From the NCBI GenBank assembly GCA_016765135.1, contig JAESQN010000006.1, positions 1-32,040 of the forward strand: a DNA stretch of 32,040 nt. Direction: 5' to 3'. Under the pieces are notes generated by a model, which was not told the origin of the DNA, ran no database searches, and saw only the letters and a program-made list of their open reading frames with translations. Numbering within the stretch: the stretch's first letter is position 1; each line of letters begins with the position of its first letter. This document shows positions 517 to 9,999 of the stretch, in pieces. The position numbers and the translations under genes are program-made. The stretch is from Robiginitomaculum sp. GTDB taxonomy: Bacteria; Pseudomonadota; Alphaproteobacteria; Caulobacterales; Maricaulaceae.

Positions 517-1698
517 TTATTCCTCTTCTTCGTCCCAGCGGTTTGTGCGGCTCCAGATGTGTTTTATTTCATCTGTTCCAGCAACAACGGCGTAACTTTC
601 ATAAGCAGCGGCCGTCATATCCGCATGATTTGGCAGCACGCGCACCAAAGAGCCTATGGGAAAGGCACCTAAGTCCACTGGAAGCCCAGATAGGCTGGTG
701 ACAAGTCCCAATTCCTGGCTCACCAACGAGACGACTAAATCGCCCATTTGCTTGCCCGTTTTAGCATCACATACGAGGCCGTAAAGCGCGTCATATGGTT
801 TGCCTTGCGTGCTACGATCTTTTGAGAGCGCCAATCCGCCTGCGTCAATGACAAAGCGGTTATATTTTGGCTGGCGAGAAATCACGCTACTCACCACCGA
901 CAAAGCTATATCGTCGATAGTGCAAGCGCCAATGCCGGCTTGAAACAAGTCTTGGAAGGTGTAAATGCCAGCCCTAGCTTCGGTTGCGCCGTCTAAATTA
1001 GTGGCATGTAAAACGGCGGGCGTAGAGCCAATACTGACTATATCACACCCAAACCCTGCGGCTAGCAAATCTGCCTTAGTCGCGGCTAACGCCTTTAAGT
1101 GCTGCTCGGTTAGCTCTCGGGTTTCGTCGGGTGTTTTTCCGTAAGACGCCCCAGCATAGGACATAATACCTGCGAAACGTGTCCGCGGGGAACTCTCGAA
1201 TAATTTTGCGGCGGTCACAATGTCGGGGCTTCCCAGCGGCGCACCCGAGCGGTAGCCATCCACATCAATTTCAATGGTAAAATCGAGCTCTACGGTGCCA
1301 TCAATCGCTTCAATCGCTTCAATCGCTTCAATTGCTTTAATTGCGGCGCGGGCTCCGTCCAAACTATCTGTCATAAGCGTAAGCAGGCAATCCGCTTCAA
1401 CAAGCGCTACGGCGCGCGCTGCTTTATTGGGCGCGAAAGGCACGCAATAATACAAATCATCTATGCCTGCTGCGTGAAAATACTCGGCTTCTTTAATGGT
1501 GGACACGTTAAATCCTTGCGCGCCCGCCCGTTTAAGCATTTGCGCGATATGGACAGATTTGGGTGTTTTTAAGTGCGGTCGTAACGGTATGCCGAGTTCT
1601 TTTGCCCGTGCAGCCATCTTGTCGATATTCGCTTGCATTATATCAATATCAAGCACTAGTGCAGGGGTTTGTAAATCTGCTAAAACTTTGTATTCCAT
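517..1698 (-). CDS. D-threonine aldolase / D-serine dehydratase-like PLP enzyme (DSD1 family)
   Basis: This 393-residue protein has an alanine-racemase-type N-terminal barrel. The segment RPHLKTPKS (residues 40-48) carries the expected PLP lysine at K44. SIGSTP (222-227) fits the phosphate-binding loop, and PNHAD (356-360) supplies the His358/Asp360 pair that binds the divalent metal in this family. Members cleave D-threonine-type beta-hydroxy-D-amino acids or dehydrate D-serine; sequence alone does not decide which. The start codon follows the asparaginase stop by three bases and uses a GAGGAAG ribosome binding site inside that gene, so the two are probably translated together. A 9-bp minisatellite encodes AIE repeats at residues 119-132. 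RidA nearby would fit a dehydratase, which releases 2-aminoacrylate. Confidence 0.85.
   Translation of the reverse strand: MEYKVLADLQTPALVLDIDIMQANIDKMAARAKELGIPLRPHLKTPKSVHIAQMLKRAGAQGFNVSTIKEAEYFHAAGIDDLYYCVPFAPNKAARAVALVEADCLLTLMTDSLDGARAAIKAIEAIEAIEAIDGTVELDFTIEIDVDGYRSGAPLGSPDIVTAAKLFESSPRTRFAGIMSYAGASYGKTPDETRELTEQHLKALAATKADLLAAGFGCDIVSIGSTPAVLHATNLDGATEARAGIYTFQDLFQAGIGACTIDDIALSVVSSVISRQPKYNRFVIDAGGLALSKDRSTQGKPYDALYGLVCDAKTGKQMGDLVVSLVSQELGLVTSLSGLPVDLGAFPIGSLVRVLPNHADMTAAAYESYAVVAGTDEIKHIWSRTNRWDEEEE
1301..1345. repeat. In-frame 9-bp minisatellite inside the PLP enzyme gene
   Basis: The unit TCAATCGCT occurs three times perfectly (1301-1327), followed by TCAATTGCT (1328-1336) and a more diverged TTAATTGCG. 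On the coding strand it gives tandem Ala-Ile-Glu triplets. Because the unit is a multiple of three, copy number can change without breaking the frame. Confidence 0.9.
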
Positions 1699-1701
1699 TA
1701 C

Positions 1702-2835
1702 TTACTTTACTTCCTCAAAATATATCCCAGTTCGGGCTTTCGTTTGCGACGACATTACGCCTCTATACATGCCTTTATTATTCATGGAAAATACGACTTT
1801 GCCCTGGGGGTCGATTGAGATAACAGCGCCAGAGCCGCCGAGCGGTTTAAGTGTATCAACCAAAACCGCATTTGCAGCTTGCTCAAGGGTTTCCCCGCCA
1901 AACTCCATGCGCGCACAAATGTCGCGCGCCACAGTCCAGCGCATAAAGTATTCACCGTGCCCGGTGGCGGATACGGCGCAGGATTGATTGGACGCATAGG
2001 TACCTGCTCCAATGATGGGGCTATCGCCTAGGCGACCAAACCTTTTGTTTGCCCGTCCGCCCGTCGATGTGCCCGCCGAAATATTGCCTGCGCTATCAAG
2101 TACAACGGCACCAACCGTGCCAAAGGCGGTTTCTCCAGCTTCATTAAAAGCGATCTCACCACGGGATTTGGCGCGTTTTTTCAAGAGCGATTTACGGCGT
2201 GCATCGGTTTGAAAATAGAGCGGGTCAGCCATTGCCAATCCTTGCTCCCTTGCAAACCAGTCCGCGCCTGCGCCGTTTAAAAGCACATTTTGCGTATTTT
2301 CCATGACTGCACGGGCGGCGGATATAGGGTTTTTAATCCGCGATGAACCAGCCACCGCGCCTGCGCCCCGGTCACGCCCGCGCATTATTGAAGCGTCATG
2401 ACGCGCATTGCCATGCTCATCAAGAGCCGCGCCGCGCCCTGCATTAAATATAGGATTATCTTCCAAAATATTTAGGGCGGCCTCAATCGCTTCTGGCCCT
2501 GTTCCGCCTTGCGCTAAAACTTTACCGCCAGCCTCAGTTGCTACTTTCAAACCAGCGCGGTATTTAGCTTCAAGTTCGGGTGTCATCTTTGAGCGGGATT
2601 TTACACCTGCGCCGCCGTGTACAGCAATTACCCATTTCGGGGCAGTGCCGATATCAGGGATTTGCGTCGCTCCCGATGATGAATAAATATGACTGTCATT
2701 CGCCTGAATTAACGGCGTCGATGTTGGCGTTGAATTCGTTTGAGCTTGCATTTGTTCAATGCTGGCACATGCTGACAAACTGGCGGTTCCTATTATGGCC
2801 AGTGCCAACAGTTTAACGGGTTTAAAACAGATCAT
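1702..2835 (-). CDS. iaaA: Isoaspartyl peptidase / type 2 L-asparaginase, lipoprotein
   Basis: This is a 377-residue Ntn-hydrolase of the plant-type asparaginase family, which cleaves isoaspartyl dipeptides and asparagine. VIAVHGGAG (residues 69-77) is the family start. GTVGAV (239-244) contains the nucleophile Thr240, which becomes the new N-terminus after autocleavage, and TSTGG (256-260) and GRLGDSP complete the active site. Residues 1-23 form a signal peptide ending in a lipobox LSAC, so the enzyme is probably a periplasmic lipoprotein; many family members are cytoplasmic. It lies 29 bp after the alpha/beta hydrolase and three bases before the PLP enzyme, on the same strand, which suggests an operon. 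The start is supported by an AAGGAAG site. Confidence 0.9.
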   Translation of the reverse strand: MICFKPVKLLALAIIGTASLSACASIEQMQAQTNSTPTSTPLIQANDSHIYSSSGATQIPDIGTAPKWVIAVHGGAGVKSRSKMTPELEAKYRAGLKVATEAGGKVLAQGGTGPEAIEAALNILEDNPIFNAGRGAALDEHGNARHDASIMRGRDRGAGAVAGSSRIKNPISAARAVMENTQNVLLNGAGADWFAREQGLAMADPLYFQTDARRKSLLKKRAKSRGEIAFNEAGETAFGTVGAVVLDSAGNISAGTSTGGRANKRFGRLGDSPIIGAGTYASNQSCAVSATGHGEYFMRWTVARDICARMEFGGETLEQAANAVLVDTLKPLGGSGAVISIDPQGKVVFSMNNKGMYRGVMSSQTKARTGIYFEEVK

Positions 2836-2864: not shown

Positions 2865-3777
2865 TTATTTTTCTATAAAATCTACGGCGCCGATTAACAT
2901 TTGCGCATTGCTATGAGCAGCGCCAGGAACAACGACGACTTTCCAGTTAAAGGGGACGCCTAATTTCTTTGCCTGACTTTCTGCATTTTTGTAAAATGTT
3001 ATTCCGCGCGCCAAACGATGTGGGCCTTGACGCTGCGCCTCCGGGGTACGGCGCAAATGCTTGTGATTACTATCTTTATCATTTTCACCGAGTAAAACAA
3101 TAACATCTTTTTGCAAAGCCGCTTTTAAGTTTTCTTCAGAAACTTCAGCCCCCAGCAATCCATAAGGATATGGTTCACTCATATCAGCTAATGTATACCA
3201 GCCTGCATTCGCAGGAATGTAACGCTTTACTCGAGCGTTCGGTTTATAAAATAAATAACGATGAACAAATTGTGAGCCAGCAGAATGTCCATATATTGTA
3301 TATTCCTTTTGGTTGCCCCCGAGGGCTTGAACTACGGTGTCAAAAAGAGGCTCAATTGCAGAAAATGCCCATAGAGATTCTTCATTTCTTTGATGTCTTT
3401 TGTCGAATACATTACCGAGATTATAGCCCGATGATTTAGGGAATTTTTTCTTAGAAAAAGTTGGCGCAATAATAATGATTTTGTTCTTTTGGGCAATTTT
3501 CACCCAATCATCACGGTAACGACCGCCGTCTCGGTTAGTCCCGTGCATAACAATCACGATTGGCAAATCACGCGTTTCAGTATTTTTTGGGATATATACC
3601 CTTACTGGAATATTTGGCCCGTCCCAACCTTGTAAACGTAAACTTTACCTTCCCAGTCTTCATTTCCGCCGTGGGTTTTGACGAGCTTGCTTCGCTTATA
3701 GGGTATCCAGGCCCATTTTGTGCGCTCGCGCCATTCGCATACCCTGCAATAAAAAAAATGATGAGTAACAATTTCAT
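2865..3777 (-). pseudogene. Secreted alpha/beta hydrolase, frameshifted
   Basis: The catalytic part is an intact frame (2865-3566) beginning PIVIVMHGTN, with the nucleophile elbow GHSAGS and the late catalytic histidine in PGAAHSN. This resembles esterase/PHB-depolymerase-like hydrolases. Its frame extends upstream through a segment reading GWDGPNIPVRVYIPKN before meeting a stop at about 3645. A second frame starting at 3777 encodes a signal peptide (MKLLLIIFF...ASAQ) and then GKVKFTFT, which runs naturally into the hydrolase if one base is removed between about 3645 and 3600. The gene is therefore either frameshifted or misread there. A shorter product starting at 3566 would be cytoplasmic and would lack the first strands. 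It is the first gene of the minus-strand cluster, and its start lies a few bases from a putative MarR operator. Confidence 0.72.
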
Positions 3778-3781
3778 TTTT

Positions 3782-3797
3782 ATCTTTATATAAAGGT
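3782..3797. promoter_or_regulatory. Putative MarR operator, copy 1
   Basis: The 16-bp imperfect palindrome ATCTTTATATAAAGGT (one mismatched pair) lies in the divergent region between the hydrolase start (3777) and ridA (3847). The surrounding 20 bp are almost the same as the site at 7574-7589 next to marR. That the MarR protein binds here is an inference. Confidence 0.6.
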
Positions 3798-3846
3798 ATA
3801 TTTTTGATATAGATTTAAATAGTGAATGTAAAATAGGACAATAATT

Positions 3847-4227
3847 ATGCAGATGACTAAAGTATTTTCTCCAGATGCCATTCCGGCGGGCGGGCACTAT
3901 TCCCAAGCAATTTCTGCCGGCGGAATGATCTATATTTCCGGGCAACTTGGTATTAGCAAATTTGACGACCCGACCGATTCTGTACACATTCAAGTTCATC
4001 GTGTTTTAAACTCCTTAAAAGAAATCCTTGCCGTTAGAGGCGCTGATATTGCTTCCGTTGCTAAGGTAACGATTTACGTTACCGACATTAAATTATGGCC
4101 AGAAATTGACGCAATCTACTCTGACTTCTTTGCAAATCACAAACCTGCCCGCGCCATTGTTCCTGTGCCCGAATTACATTACGGCGCAAAGATAGAACTA
4201 GAAGCGATAGCCATTGACACTCAGTAA
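3847..4227 (+). CDS. RidA/YjgF family imine-enamine deaminase
   Basis: This is a 126-residue RidA-like protein. The family core is visible in SGQLGI (31-36), in PARAIV with the conserved arginine R102, and in KIELEAIA near the C-terminus, which carries the expected glutamate. RidA proteins hydrolyse reactive 2-aminoacrylate and other imines left by PLP dehydratases and amino-acid oxidases. It is divergent from the hydrolase-asparaginase-PLP enzyme cluster and shares a putative MarR operator with it, which fits a role in clearing imines from D-amino-acid breakdown. An AGGA sequence 8 bases upstream supports the start; the second ATG two codons later is also possible. A strong hairpin follows. 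Confidence 0.9.
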   Translation: MQMTKVFSPDAIPAGGHYSQAISAGGMIYISGQLGISKFDDPTDSVHIQVHRVLNSLKEILAVRGADIASVAKVTIYVTDIKLWPEIDAIYSDFFANHKPARAIVPVPELHYGAKIELEAIAIDTQ

Positions 4228-4256
4228 ACAGAGCATTTAGCAGTACTAGCTATTTT

Positions 4257-4288
4257 GATAGTGCGAGTAAATTGCTACTCGCACTATC
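4257..4288 (+). terminator. Strong hairpin between ridA and the TonB receptor
   Basis: Two perfect 13-bp arms (GATAGTGCGAGTA and its complement) enclose the loop AATTGC. The hairpin lies 30 bp after the ridA stop and 60 bp beyond the receptor stop, so it may terminate both convergent transcripts. The T tract on the plus side is weak; the minus-strand side reads into AAAATAGC. Confidence 0.65.
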
Positions 4289-4347
4289 ATTACTTGTTGC
4301 CCCACCAGCGAACATATTGCGAAATAATTCTCTAAACCCCGCTCTAG

Positions 4348-5724
4348 TTAGAATCGCACACGTGTGCCGAAAGTGAACGTCCGACCATTGAATGTCGAGT
4401 TATCATTAAAGGCTCGGCTTTTGCCCCGGGTTTCAAATACGGACGGCTTTTGGCCTGTGTCCGTAAGGTCATTGGCTTCAAAAAACAGGGTCACCCGACC
4501 AAAAGGCCCAACATCTTTAAACCTATATTCGATGTTGAAATCAATGAAAGTACGCCCTTGCTGGAATTGACTAATACCAAAAGCTTCTATTTCTTCTAGC
4601 TGTACTCCGGAGTTTCTATATGACAAGTTAGCTTCCAAGCCTTTATAATCCACGAATAATGTTGCATTATAAATAGCTTCCGGTGAGTTGAAGAACGGGA
4701 ATTCCTGGGTAAGGATATCGTCAGTATTGGCAAAACCCAATTGCACAAATGCAGCAGGTGACACAGTTAGACCGTCATCAATTTGTTGTTGAGTCAGTGA
4801 GAAATCACCTATGGCAATCGTGGTTTTGGAATCTGTGAATGTCGCATTGCCAATAAAGCCAAAGTGGGACAAAATACCTGGCAGATAATCAAAGGCGTGG
4901 AACACGGCAAACTCAATACCGGTAATTGTAGCTTTCTCGCCGTTTCGAGCCTGAGAGATATCAGTGTCAAATCCTGGCAAAGCAGCAATCCCCTGGAAAC
5001 CACCGAGCTGATCGACCAATTCAAACCCTGGCCTCCCAGCGAGATTCAGGCTGGCAAATAATGCACCAGGGTCATTAACGCCTGCCAAGTTTACATCTGC
5101 GTCCGTCGCGAAAGAGTTAAAGATGAAATCATCGATTTGTTTATGAAAAACCGCAACACTAAAAGCGTTTTGCTTGTCGGCATAATACTCAAATGAAATA
5201 TCGAAATTTCTTGAGTAGGCGTTTCTTAGTTCAGGGTTGCCCACTGTAAAAGATGCGCCCGCTTCAATAATGTCCGCACTCGTCGCTGTCGCTATATCAA
5301 CACCATCTGCCACTTCAACATTAAAGCGCCCGTTAATTCGGCCAGTTAACAGGTCAAATGTTGGCCGGGATAGAGCCGTTGTATAGGCCGCCCTAATTTT
5401 CATTTTGTCTGAAAGATTATAATTCAGCGCAATTCTGGGCAGGAACTCAAAATTAGACGTCGAAGTAAGAATTCGCTCTGACTGAGGAGCTACCAAAGTT
5501 AATTCATCATCAGCAGTACCACTGGCAGCTTGATCAAAGTCAATTCGAGATCTGAAAAGCAGAGAGCCTGCAAAATCCGCGTCATACTGCTCTATGCGTG
5601 CGCCCGCTACGATATCAAGTTTATTAAATGTCCACTTGCCTTGGGCATAGGCCGTGAAGAATGTTTCTTCGGCTTCAATGATGTCGACTTGACGGGGATC
5701 GACGCCAGAATCTAAAACCCTCTT
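4348..5724 (-). pseudogene. TonB-dependent receptor, C-terminal part after a frameshift
   Basis: This is the distal part of the receptor beta-barrel. The frame is open upstream to a TGA at 5727-5725 and begins RVLDSGVDPRQ. It continues through AYAQGKWTF and ARIEQYD, typical barrel strands, and through AAYTTALSRPTF, a block common in large receptors of the Caulobacter/Xanthomonas type. It ends with RTFTFGTRVRF; a terminal phenylalanine is the usual outer-membrane insertion signal. The internal ATG at 5496 lies in the middle of the barrel and is unlikely to be a real start. Restoring one base in the 16 bp between 5712 and 5727 joins this segment to the N-terminal part for a protein of about 1,050 residues. 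Confidence 0.8.
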
Positions 5725-7514
5725 TCATATGAAGCAAATAGGCTACGCAAAGCAGCGGCGTCAAATTGCGGAATACCGACAAACCCTGAAGCACGGAAAG
5801 GATTACCTATAGGATCAAAGCTGATCACATTTTGGGTTAGAAGCCCCAAATCACCGATTTGAACATTACTGTCGCCCAACCCGTTATTAACATCAGTACC
5901 AAGGAATTCACCATTAGGACCTAAAGTGTCATCAACAAAGGAGACATCTATATCACGATCCAGGAAATCTGAACGCTCCCACTGACCGCCAAATTTTATA
6001 TTCTGCAGAGCATTGCCGCTGTCAGAAAAATCTCTGGTGATGTCAAAACGGGCTGTGTAGCGCGTATTTTCACGGGAGTCTTCCAGCTCGTAATTAAAAT
6101 CGGCAATTTCACCGCAAGAGCTGCCGCCGTTCTGACAAAACGGATCAAGAGCCTCCAAAAACACGGCTTGATTTAACGGGACAGGCCCCGGAAACAATCC
6201 ATTGCCAATGCTTAAATCAAAGGGTGCGAATGTAATAGCTCTCTCATCCCCGGTGCCCCTACCAGGTGAGCTTGGCGTTTCTTCCAGTTCCTGCTCGAAA
6301 TTGATTTCTCTAAGCGGGCGATCCCGAAAGGCACGTGACCAACCCGCCGTAACATTGATATCCCATTTGTCGAGCCTGGTTTCGCTGCGCAGGAATAGAC
6401 GGGATTCGGTTTCAATATCATCCTCAACAAGACCGCGAAAGTTGATCTCGGGATCTCTGAACGTATTTATGCCGCCAACAAAGCTGTTATCAACATCAAA
6501 TTCGATCGTATTCGTGTCTTGCCTATCTTCCTTTTCGTCGTGACGTCCACCCAATGTGATCTTTGTGGTTGGGGAAACCTCCCAGTCAATATTACCGGAA
6601 AAAGTAATCTGATCCCGTTCAATATCGTCATAGGTGTAATTAATTTGCTCCGTCGTGAAATTGGCTATATCGATGAAATCTGTCGGGACAAGCGCCAAAT
6701 CGTCTGGGTCACCAAAAACCATTGGGTTGCCATTCACATCATTGAGAGTAACTGCGGTTAATAGATCTGGAACAGCTGTTGCCGGATTGATCTGGAAGCC
6801 AGTGACAAAGCGCTTACGGTAACGGGCGCTTAGATTGATGCCCACGGTATCGGACAGATGTTTTGTGAAAGAGCCGCCAAGGCGATAGCCATTTTTATCG
6901 GCAAAACTATTATTACTGATACTGGCACTTACGCTTGTCCGTTCTCTGCGCTCCAAAGCACCCTTTGTTCGGATATTGACAATACCGCCAATGCCTTCTG
7001 ATGCATGTTCAGGGAGCGGTGCTTTGATAACATCAATACTACTCACATTATCCCCGGTAATCACATCCAGAGCCGAGCGCCGGAATTCATCGGCTGTGCC
7101 CGTTCTCAATCCATTGTGCAAAACCGTGTTATACTGGGCATCCAGTCCGCGAATTGAAATAAACTCGCCGTCGCCAGAATTGTTATCACGCTGGAAGGAT
7201 ATCCCCGGAATACGCGCAAGGGCTTCCCCGATATTGTTGTCTGGAAAGCGGTCAGCATGATCTGCCGAGAGCGAATCCATGATCGAATCTGCTCTGCGCT
7301 TAATTCCCAGTGAATTTGCGATTGAACTGCGTGTACCCGTAGCAATTATCTCGTCTATTTCGTCGACAGGCGTCGCGGATGCGGGCGGTGACGCTGTTAA
7401 AACTTGTGCTTCCTGATCAACCTCCTGCGCCTGTGCTGTCATTGGCGCTATTGCTACTAGCAAAACCGACGACACGCTCCCCAATAATACTTTCTTCGTG
7501 AATTTAAACTGCAT
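5712..7514 (-). CDS. TonB-dependent receptor, N-terminal part (plug and first barrel strands)
   Basis: This 600-residue frame starts with a signal peptide ending near AQAQ (about residue 30), followed by a Ser/Ala/Pro-rich linker and a plug domain. The plug is recognised from DEIIATGTRSSI, DNNIGEALARIPGI and the block SIRGLDAQYNTVLHNG. Barrel strands follow (LGGSFTKHLSDTVGINLSARYRKRF and others). Such receptors import large or scarce substrates across the outer membrane with TonB-ExbBD energy. The frame stops in the barrel at 5712 because of a one-base shift. An AGGAGGGG site precedes the start. Its divergent neighbour is marR, with a shared palindrome between them. The substrate is unknown; the neighbours suggest D-amino-acid-containing peptides or N-acyl-D-amino acids. 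Confidence 0.85.
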   Translation of the reverse strand: MQFKFTKKVLLGSVSSVLLVAIAPMTAQAQEVDQEAQVLTASPPASATPVDEIDEIIATGTRSSIANSLGIKRRADSIMDSLSADHADRFPDNNIGEALARIPGISFQRDNNSGDGEFISIRGLDAQYNTVLHNGLRTGTADEFRRSALDVITGDNVSSIDVIKAPLPEHASEGIGGIVNIRTKGALERRERTSVSASISNNSFADKNGYRLGGSFTKHLSDTVGINLSARYRKRFVTGFQINPATAVPDLLTAVTLNDVNGNPMVFGDPDDLALVPTDFIDIANFTTEQINYTYDDIERDQITFSGNIDWEVSPTTKITLGGRHDEKEDRQDTNTIEFDVDNSFVGGINTFRDPEINFRGLVEDDIETESRLFLRSETRLDKWDINVTAGWSRAFRDRPLREINFEQELEETPSSPGRGTGDERAITFAPFDLSIGNGLFPGPVPLNQAVFLEALDPFCQNGGSSCGEIADFNYELEDSRENTRYTARFDITRDFSDSGNALQNIKFGGQWERSDFLDRDIDVSFVDDTLGPNGEFLGTDVNNGLGDSNVQIGDLGLLTQNVISFDPIGNPFRASGFVGIPQFDAAALRSLFASYERGF

Positions 7515-7573
7515 ATTCCCCTCCTGGACAATGATTCATTTTTCTGCCTCAATAAATATACATACCGATTTTT

Positions 7574-7589
7574 ATCTTTATGTAAAGAT
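7574..7589. promoter_or_regulatory. Putative MarR operator, copy 2
   Basis: The palindrome ATCTTTATGTAAAGAT, with perfect 7-bp arms around the central TG, sits between the receptor start (7514) and the marR start (7665). The block TATCTTTAtgTAAAGATATA matches the site at 3781-3800 in all but two of 20 positions. The location suits autorepression of marR and repression of the receptor. Confidence 0.65.
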
Positions 7590-7664
7590 ATATTATGTTG
7601 AGATATACAATCCCCTTGTCAATGCGACATAATTACCGCATTAGATTTTCAATGAGGAGAGAAT

Positions 7665-8156
7665 ATGGCTAAAAAAACAGACTTAGTAGATGCCCTAATT
7701 AAAGACTGGGCAAATGAAATACCAAATATGTCAACGTGCGGAATTGGTGTTGCCGGTAGAATTCTTAGACTGGGTAGACAATTTGAAGCGCGCGTAAACG
7801 CATTGCTAAAACCTCATGGGCTTAGCTATACGGACTTTGATGTCCTTGCCACATTACGGCGAAGCGGCGTCCCATACCGCTTGCCCCCCACTCAATTGAT
7901 GAAGTCCGTCCTGATAACCTCTGGAGCCATGACAGCAGCACTTGACCGCCTAACCAGAGTAAAAATGATAAAGCGCGCCCCACACAAAACAGATCGCCGT
8001 AGCTTTACTGCGGAGCTAACCCCTAAAGGGAAAGCTGCCATTGAAAAGGTTTTGTCCTTGAGATTTGAGGATGCTGAAAACTCTATCAACCATTTATCCA
8101 ATAAGGATATAAAACAATTAGAAATATTGCTACGAAAACTGACGTTGAGAGATTAA
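7665..8156 (+). CDS. MarR-family transcriptional regulator
   Basis: This 163-residue protein has the helical and winged-helix layout of MarR repressors. RILRLGRQFEARVNALLKPHGLS is the dimerisation helix and helix 2, PTQLMKSVLITSGAMTAALDRL is the recognition region, and KMIKRAPHKTDRRSFTAELTPKG is the wing with the typical DRR motif. MarR proteins are dimers that leave palindromic operators when a small ligand binds. The start has a GAGGAGAG site 5 bases upstream. It is divergent from the TonB receptor, and the same palindrome recurs next to ridA and the hydrolase, so it probably controls the D-amino-acid locus. The ligand is not apparent. Confidence 0.92.
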   Translation: MAKKTDLVDALIKDWANEIPNMSTCGIGVAGRILRLGRQFEARVNALLKPHGLSYTDFDVLATLRRSGVPYRLPPTQLMKSVLITSGAMTAALDRLTRVKMIKRAPHKTDRRSFTAELTPKGKAAIEKVLSLRFEDAENSINHLSNKDIKQLEILLRKLTLRD

Positions 8157-8412: not shown

Positions 8413-9999
8413 TCATTCTGGGTTTATGTGCTTTGTGCATGGCTTTAGGACTTTGCCCGGAAAAACGGGTTGGGAGACGCCTTCATTTACGGCCAAACGA
8501 CCATTTACAAATAGATATTTTACGCCTTCGGACAGGCGTTCGGGATTTTGGAAGTCTGCCAAGGGCGCAAAGATTTTGGGGTCAAAAACAACAATATCGG
8601 CCTTATAGCCGGGTTTAAGGTAACCGCGCCCGCACAAGTTAAATGTATCAGCGACAAGTCCGCTACTGCGGTAGAGAAAGCTTTCAACAGGCATAACGCG
8701 CTGGTCTTTTATATAGGTTTGATATTTTTTGGGGAAACTGGCATATTTGCGCGGGTGCCCAACCGAGCCATCCGAACTGGTCATCACCCATTCCTGCTTC
8801 ATAAAATTGACAACGTCTTTCTTGTCCATATTAAAAGATGCAATTTTTGCATTGCCGTTGCTGGCAATATATATGGCCATGTCGACTGCGGACAGATTAT
8901 TTTTCTGGGCCAGATGGCTCAAGGTTTTCCCTTGCCAGTCGGCGCGGCCCATAGTGATCAGAACCGCATCGCCGCCCCCGCGCCGCCGCAAGTTTTCTGC
9001 AACGTCAAGGCGGAGTTTCGCGCGTAATAAAGTGTCTTTAAGTCGGGCCTGATGTTTTTCTTTGCCGCCCGCTTTTATATCGCGCGGGATCAAGGCAGCC
9101 GATATAGACGTGCCTGAAGCCAGCCAAGGGTATTGGTCCGCCGTAACGCGCAAGCCCTCCGCGCGCGCTTTTTCTATCATAGCTATCACGGGTACGCTTT
9201 TGCCCCAGACATCAACCCCCAATGCTTTGATATGGGCAATGTGAACGGGAATGTCAGCACGGCGACCAATTTCAAGCACCTCCTCTATTGATGCTTCCAG
9301 GCCGATATTATAAGTGCTTTCATCACGGATATGGCTGTCATAAACACCACCTTTCAAGGCCGCCACTTTTGCAAGCGCGACAACTTCGTCCGTACCGGAA
9401 AAACTACCCGGAACATAAAATAGTCCTGTAGATAAACCCAGTGCACCGGCGTCCATGGCCTCGTCGACAAGGGTTTTCATTTGCGATAATTCGTCCGGCG
9501 TTGGTGCCCGTTTTGCATTTTCCATCACCAGTCTGCGTACCGCGCCGTGGCCGATATAAAGCGCCGTATTTGTGCCGATACCGTGTGTTTGAAGCTGGCT
9601 GGATACTTTCAAAATATCTGGCTTTCCGCGGCCGTCATTACCGTTAAACACGGTCGTCACCCCTTGCAGGCGGTAATTAGCATTTTGCCGCAAAGCCTTA
9701 TCCTCACTGCCGAGCTCAAGCAGGCTATGGGTGTGGGGGTCTATAAATCCTGGCGCTATAATGTAGCCGCTCGCATCAATTAAACTTTTAGCTCTAAGAT
9801 GCCCTGAGCGCTTTCCGATAAAAATGATCTCGTCATTTTTTATTGCAATATCAGCGCGAATACTGCCGGAGCCATCACCCACATACACATCCGCGTTGGT
9901 GAGCAAATAATCTGCTTCCAAAGGCGCGGTACACGCTGACAAAATCATGAAGATTAAGGGGATTGTATATTTACCGATTTTCATTGTTTTTGTTCCCAC
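8413..9999 (-). CDS. N-acyl-D-amino-acid deacylase (D-aminoacylase), lipoprotein
   Basis: This is a 528-residue amidohydrolase of the D-aminoacylase group, which releases free D-amino acids from N-acyl-D-amino acids. Family marks are APGFIDPHTHS (HxH at H89/H91), HIRDES, VHIAHIKALG, SSDGSVGHPRKY and the C-terminal GYLKPGYKADIVVFDP. Residues 1-23 form a signal peptide with lipobox LSAC, so it probably faces the periplasm; the classical enzymes lack this and are about 480 residues long. The first codon may be the GTG at 9999 or the ATG at 9984. The block GVTTVFNGNDG (113-123) has Asp122 where classical enzymes have the metal-binding cysteine of GNCG. A dadA remnant ends just upstream on the same strand, so the two were probably one operon. 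Confidence 0.88.
   Translation of the reverse strand: MGTKTMKIGKYTIPLIFMILSACTAPLEADYLLTNADVYVGDGSGSIRADIAIKNDEIIFIGKRSGHLRAKSLIDASGYIIAPGFIDPHTHSLLELGSEDKALRQNANYRLQGVTTVFNGNDGRGKPDILKVSSQLQTHGIGTNTALYIGHGAVRRLVMENAKRAPTPDELSQMKTLVDEAMDAGALGLSTGLFYVPGSFSGTDEVVALAKVAALKGGVYDSHIRDESTYNIGLEASIEEVLEIGRRADIPVHIAHIKALGVDVWGKSVPVIAMIEKARAEGLRVTADQYPWLASGTSISAALIPRDIKAGGKEKHQARLKDTLLRAKLRLDVAENLRRRGGGDAVLITMGRADWQGKTLSHLAQKNNLSAVDMAIYIASNGNAKIASFNMDKKDVVNFMKQEWVMTSSDGSVGHPRKYASFPKKYQTYIKDQRVMPVESFLYRSSGLVADTFNLCGRGYLKPGYKADIVVFDPKIFAPLADFQNPERLSEGVKYLFVNGRLAVNEGVSQPVFPGKVLKPCTKHINPE

Follow-up and report, generated by a model that had tools for sequence, protein, structure and literature searches.

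Two near-identical 18-bp palindromes lie in the divergent promoters of a 32,040-nucleotide stretch of Robiginitomaculum sp. DNA (GenBank assembly GCA_016765135.1, contig JAESQN010000006.1). This stretch, hereafter the window, is one entire contig of a genome of 2,874,980 bases in 52 contigs. The palindromes very probably serve as operators for a MarR-family protein whose gene is at 7665-8156. Judged by comparison with its relatives, this protein would resemble the PecS/UrtR type in the DNA that it recognises but differ from it in the ligand pocket, and would control genes for the uptake and breakdown of peptide-like nutrients. The sites and the genes concerned are as follows.

3781-3798, no strand: candidate operator A, 18-bp palindrome TATCTTTATATAAAGGTA, one base pair off symmetry
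7573-7590, no strand: candidate operator B, 18-bp palindrome TATCTTTATGTAAAGATA, only the central two bases breaking symmetry
7593-7607, plus strand: degenerate repeat of the right half of operator B (13/15), a candidate element from sequence only
7665-8156, plus strand: marR, PecS-like regulator of the R-type group defined below (tree placement; nearest PDB chain 8ylh; MarR domain over curated cut-offs, PF12802 33.6 bits against 27 and PF01047 29.6 against 24.6)
5712-7514, minus strand: TonB-dependent receptor, N-terminal part with plug domain (PF07715; TIGR01782 below its cut-off)
4348-5496, minus strand: TonB-dependent receptor, C-terminal part, in a different frame that is open to about 5710 (frame analysis)
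3847-4227, plus strand: ridA, Rid family (PF01042, 99.6 bits; TIGR00004, 100.3 bits, below its cut-off of 106.25)
2865-3777, minus strand: secreted-type hydrolase, alpha/beta-hydrolase-like (52% identical homologue in locus L026; family matches weak)
1702-2835, minus strand: isoaspartyl peptidase / asparaginase type 2 (PF01112, 332.8 bits)
517-1698, minus strand: pyridoxal phosphate (PLP) enzyme of the D-threonine aldolase / D-serine dehydratase kind (PF01168 and PF14031)

An earlier note on this DNA had described two matching 20-base sequences here, both imperfect palindromes, one between the hydrolase and ridA and the other between the TonB receptor and marR. Its description is borne out: the two agree at 18 of 20 positions, with mismatches at positions 10 and 16, and the symmetric core is 18 bp. 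The likeness extends to 25 of 27 positions when 3776-3802 is set against 7568-7594, and the arms TATCTT-N6-AAGATA are exact in B and have one mismatch in A. Site A is 3 bp from the putative ATG of the hydrolase and 48 bp from ridA, and site B is 58 bp from the ATG of the receptor and 74 bp from marR. Only the hydrolase frame, whose run is open upstream, and a 77-codon open reading frame (ORF) overlap site A. Allowing up to three mismatches, the 20-mer motif was found in the whole window only at A and B (each on both strands), and 100 dinucleotide shuffles gave no match.

The box is scarce in the rest of the genome. A genome scan for further copies, as the earlier note had advised, returned only A and B within one mismatch of the full motif TATCTTTATRTAAAGATA. 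As no further site was found at that level, the palindrome is not one that recurs at many unrelated promoters, the outcome named in advance as contrary to the proposal. The single place with two mismatches, C19:4608 (L003), has perfect arms, lies inside a 208-codon ORF and is probably a chance match. Its 7.5-kb contig looks phage-like by eye. Three mismatches are background level: the strand-wise matches number 8 altogether, and those of the reversed pattern 9. With a free centre and up to two mismatches, TATCTT-N6-AAGATA occurs 124 times per strand and the reversed control 79 times; only the strict motif thus carries signal, the loose pattern being little above background. Free-centre arms within one mismatch gave 14 places, namely A, B, C22:114328, which has no overlapping ORF of 60 codons but is off-consensus in its centre, and 11 others, each inside a predicted ORF of at least 88 codons. 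With 11 of the 14 places thus within ORFs, a large regulon in this genome was rejected.

Beyond this genome, homologues of marR were found in 14 of 137 genomes of the family (E <= 1e-10), 17 of 385 of the class (E <= 1e-25) and, by profile, 69 of 398 of the phylum (E <= 1e-30), all tallies that include the window's own genome, and at nine loci in other lineages. From the phylum profile matches 24 non-self loci were opened, many of them from families f177 and f204. The pooled set of 62 homologues omits the window itself (L006) and L157, which is the same place as L083, and retains L019, as a miss; 221 bases around the start of each were scored. The best match to TATCTT-N6-AAGATA had no mismatch in 33 of these upstream regions, one in 14, two in 12, three in 1 and five in 2, so the arms are present at one mismatch or fewer in 47 of the 62. 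The reversed pattern had at least three mismatches in all 62, and among 1240 shuffled upstreams one reached one mismatch and 16 more reached two. Chance likeness of AT-rich DNA is ruled out by the shuffles of the window (0/100) and of the upstreams (1/1240 at up to one arm mismatch). At least two boxes, mostly 20-40 bp apart, were seen in 17 of the first 40 rows; the window has one, together with the degenerate half-site repeat.

The box is also confined in its position. When 33 loci were cut into 2579 tiles of 221 bases, a set that included the marR upstreams and from which boxes crossing tile borders could escape, 19 tiles held arms with at most one mismatch. Seventeen of them are upstream of a marR homologue and the remaining two (L024:6938 and L028:6977) are before PLP-enzyme runs. 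Nine relative genomes scanned for the fuller motif TATCTTDAYRTHAAGATA at up to one mismatch gave 16 places in eight of the nine, against none for the reversed control. Fourteen of these stand at marR or precede the PLP run of L024, and the regulator is thus local in these genomes. Of the other two, one lies between purK-like and purE-like genes. The second, a one-mismatch box of the L024 genome (L169 8283-8300), precedes a gene for arginine deiminase and is a candidate second target.

The possibility that the sites are read by some other regulator, such as a paralogue of the MarR protein or a regulator acting on the TonB receptor in response to iron, draws on nine further stretches of the genome that match PF12802, seven of them over cut-off. 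It is opposed by the fact that the window marR is the only match to P0001 in the genome at E <= 1e-10, and by the way the box tracks the homologues of this one regulator across phyla, and we regard it as very improbable indeed.

The box belongs to a known type. Both sites have the 18-bp length and, but for the one mismatch in A, the TATCTT half-starts of a PecS/UrtR operator, and each agrees at 16 of 18 positions with TATCTTTATATTAAGATA, given as a Vibrio vulnificus PecS site and termed perfectly palindromic in the excerpted text of PMC6391409. According to the same excerpts, footprinting located two PecS sites in the pecS-pecM region of V. vulnificus, and the 18-bp consensus is conserved chiefly over the six bases that open each half (PMC6391409). 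The closest PDB chains to the window MarR by phmmer are 8ylh, 8yli and 8ylj (E 1e-22) and 8ylf (E 9e-22); 8YLI and 8YLJ are PecS of Pectobacterium atrosepticum (PMC12893000, in excerpt).

The ligand pocket differs from that of PecS. The R-type group of regulators was first delimited by its residues at positions 92 and 133, and a tree of 67 homologues has a branch with 100/99 support that parts the window protein, together with 21 others, from PecS. The first tree, of 40 rows, gave the split 100/98, or 98/96 after removal of the seven diagnostic columns, a step that covered the 40 rows only. L019 was omitted from the trees, and L020, L011, L168, L010, L069, L140 and L075 have long branches in the 67-row tree. 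Position 92 is Cys, Ala or Leu in 22/22 of the group (Ala92 in the window) as against Arg in 44 of the 45 others, and position 133 is Arg in 20/22 (Arg133 in the window; one Trp and one His elsewhere) as against His in 39 of the 45. Asp59 and Arg104 are kept in all 67 proteins, and Trp15 in 17/22 of the group and 45/45 of the others. We take positions 59, 92 and 104 to be the urate-signature residues (one Asp and two Arg, in HucR numbering), and the signature is incomplete in the window regulator, in which Asp59 and Arg104 are present and the second Arg is replaced by Ala92. The protein has Trp15 (UrtR members carry a conserved Trp in a helical N-terminal extension) and has TSGA for the T/S-S-G-T element before the recognition helix, as do many rows of the other group. 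The uric-acid contact His is not kept either, Arg133 being aligned with the PecS His equated to HucR His142, which is described as a uric-acid contact in excerpts of PMC12893000. Since two ligand-pocket residues are replaced, urate is probably not the signal of the window regulator.

These residues bear on a simpler account, in which the protein is a PecS of the usual kind, responsive to urate, with peptide genes incidentally in its regulon. The shared operator, the nearest PDB chain and the retained Trp15, Asp59 and Arg104 would all suit it, but Arg133 at the His142 equivalent, Ala at position 92, the placement of the window protein across the 100/99 branch from PecS and a divergent gene that is not EamA (PecM-like) do not, and we consider it quite improbable. 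We would give roughly even chances to a wider proposal: that a separate PecS-like group in Pseudomonadota, Bacteroidota and Rhodothermota has retained the operator, has exchanged the urate pocket (His to Arg, and Arg to Cys, Ala or Leu), senses a peptide or amino-acid breakdown product and governs small regulons, of one or two promoters each, made up of peptidases, receptors and amino-acid enzymes.

The neighbours of the group, read from our own ORF calls, include a peptide-, amide- or ester-hydrolase-like gene beside marR or in the adjoining run in 14 of the 22 members. The kinds seen were abhydrolase or TAP-like, beta-lactamase-fold, amidohydrolase, asparaginase and S15, several of these matches (L022, L023 and L027 among them) being below curated cut-offs. 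Three of the remaining members have a CAAX-protease-like neighbour (one just under cut-off), one has only a PLP-cyclodeaminase pair and four are without clear assignment. The CAAX-protease-like (Rce1-like) genes are divergent to marR in L036, L041 and L160, all of the same regulator group.

The earlier note had further proposed that a single MarR protein controls the receptor, hydrolase, isoaspartyl peptidase, PLP enzyme and RidA together. Comparison lends support to this, through the box at 47 of the 62 homologues, a gene run in L026 and the boxes in L024 and L028. The hydrolase, isoaspartyl peptidase and PLP enzyme of the window form a closely spaced minus-strand run, and in L026, a metagenome-assembled genome (MAG) of the Woeseiaceae, marR and a box are followed in one direction by receptor, hydrolase, isoaspartyl peptidase and PLP enzyme, the last three being 52%, 68% and 63% identical to those of the window. 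In the Prolixibacteraceae MAG L024, about 3 kb from marR, two boxes precede the genes for a PLP enzyme and a protein of the ornithine-cyclodeaminase family. A weaker box in L028, also a Woeseiaceae MAG, with one mismatch in its arms and a centre that departs from the consensus, is about 5.4 kb from marR. On one side of it stands the gene for an S15 X-Pro dipeptidyl-peptidase and on the other an amidohydrolase-permease-PLP-cyclodeaminase run, a divergent arrangement like that of site A. For RidA, the proposal finds its support in site A and in one RidA gene near marR, about 2.6 kb away, in L021 (Flavobacteriaceae).

A narrower regulon may also be considered, in which site B controls marR itself and the receptor, and site A either ridA or the hydrolase run but not both. 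Only 3 bp from the hydrolase ATG, site A overlaps the ribosome-binding region presumed there, which makes its effect on the hydrolase side unsure, and promoter scans at A and B gave one site each, the shuffled expectation and nothing above it. The divergent layout of the L028 box, the L026 arrangement, with the genes for hydrolase, peptidase and PLP enzyme all following the box at marR, and a V. vulnificus PecS site placed 6 bp from a start codon (PMC6391409, in excerpt) argue for the fuller regulon, and the narrower one seems to us decidedly unlikely.

Matches to the PLP enzyme (E <= 1e-50) occur in 27 of 397 other genomes of the phylum, none above 45% identity. Two of these with an adjoining marR match, G823 and G717, were read further, and their regulators are PecS-like with EamA divergent. 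Hydrolase matches (E <= 1e-15) occur in 13 of 384 other genomes of the class; among the 11 of 13 regions that were opened, G284 alone has a homologous marR nearby, and its best box has one arm mismatch and five mismatches against the window site. EamA is also divergent to the regulator in L031, L165 and L166. In the last two, a PecS-like regulator with divergent EamA (PecM-like) stands beside a PLP-enzyme/cyclodeaminase run (with OsmC and PALP genes in L165), and the PLP-cyclodeaminase pair thus recurs near both regulator groups.

Frame changes near 3630 and at about 5715 split the hydrolase and the receptor, respectively, in the assembly, and the signal-like N-terminus and catalytic part of the hydrolase are in different frames. 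The boxes could then be real but vestigial, left in a decaying gene set with a nonfunctional receptor and hydrolase, as one frame change in each gene would suggest. The frames of the peptidase, PLP enzyme, RidA and marR are intact, however, both boxes are sharp and the frame changes may be assembly errors, decay and sequencing error being indistinguishable from the assembly. We regard a vestigial system as unlikely.

Several observations weigh against the view that the palindromes are operators of a working peptide regulon. The box is lacking, at up to one arm mismatch, in 15 of the 62 homologues (12 of these have one at two mismatches), and the 62 are interrelated, with several from one family. 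An arms-perfect place (C19:4608) occurs inside an ORF on another contig of the same genome. Because the hydrolase and receptor frames are interrupted, the regulon may be partly decayed or the assembly wrong. By tblastn at 1e-5 the L026 receptor did not match the window. The scan for TATCTTDAYRTHAAGATA at up to one mismatch found nothing in the L028 genome, whose box falls within the longest callable amidohydrolase ORF, yet upstream of the part homologous to that of the window. RidA is near such a regulator in one other locus only (L021). Finally, direct observation extends to the identity and rarity of the sites, their persistence beside the regulator, the linked genes of relatives and the changed pocket positions, and binding, repression, ligand and pathway are inferred.

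If the palindromes are indeed operators of the marR product, a dimer of the regulator would bind each 18-bp box, by analogy with PecS. From site B it would keep its own gene and the TonB receptor repressed, and from site A the hydrolase-peptidase-PLP run and ridA, until a ligand releases it and uptake, cleavage and amino-acid processing are switched on together. That ligand would probably not be urate and may instead be a peptide or amino-acid breakdown product. A carboxylate-bearing one is favoured as the likeliest class because of the His-to-Arg exchange and the peptidase company, a choice we make tentatively and at clearly less than even confidence. The Rid family removes reactive enamines, which fits RidA beside a PLP enzyme, and RidA would here clear those arising from the PLP chemistry.

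Downstream of marR lies one further gene of related kind.

8413-9999, minus strand: amidohydrolase, D-aminoacylase-like (PF07969; related gene in the L028 run)

We are unsure of this gene as a member of the regulon; the nearest match to the box upstream of it (10255) has five mismatches. A signal-like stretch ending in LSAC, which we take to be a lipoprotein-like motif, starts both the isoaspartyl peptidase (2835) and the amidohydrolase (9999), each on the minus strand. A perfect 14-bp inverted repeat with a 6-nt loop (4256-4289) lies in the gap on which ridA and the receptor gene converge and is perhaps a shared transcription end.

The operator and the fold are already known; the new part would be their combination with this regulon and this pocket. 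No report joining a PecS-type operator, such a regulon and an altered pocket was found among the matches listed, which is weak evidence, the literature covered being thin on subscription journals, and the palindrome strings likewise gave no MarR-regulator paper among the matches listed in full-text literature. An anonymous palindrome becomes part of a regulator-operator pair that can be tested, with PecS as its structural template. It offers a natural case in which DNA specificity stayed and ligand specificity appears to have changed, and the origin of new MarR signals is therefore directly testable. The arms TATCTT-N6-AAGATA beside a regulator with Arg133 and a residue other than Arg at 92 also provide a short signature for finding and grouping peptide-scavenging gene sets.

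Among known systems, the closest likeness is to PecS of V. vulnificus and P. atrosepticum, of the UrtR subfamily. The common features are an 18-bp palindrome whose arms read TATCTT, a divergent promoter with boxes close to start codons, and a conserved N-terminal Trp (excerpts of PMC6391409 and PMC12893000). Unlike PecS, the window has no pecM/EamA partner, the divergent gene being a TonB receptor; its regulator has Arg at the His142 equivalent and Ala at position 92, and its neighbours are a receptor, a peptidase and amino-acid enzymes. TamR of Streptomyces coelicolor provides a precedent for a PecS paralogue with another ligand (citrate and related compounds) and a metabolic regulon, although its targets, unlike those proposed here, are citric-acid-cycle genes, and it is set beside the window by description only (excerpts of PMC5487221 and PMC6391409). 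MhqR of Staphylococcus aureus likewise has a 9-9 bp palindrome, starting TATCTCGAA, but, unlike the window regulator, is a quinone sensor with quinone-detoxification targets (PMC12893000, in excerpt).

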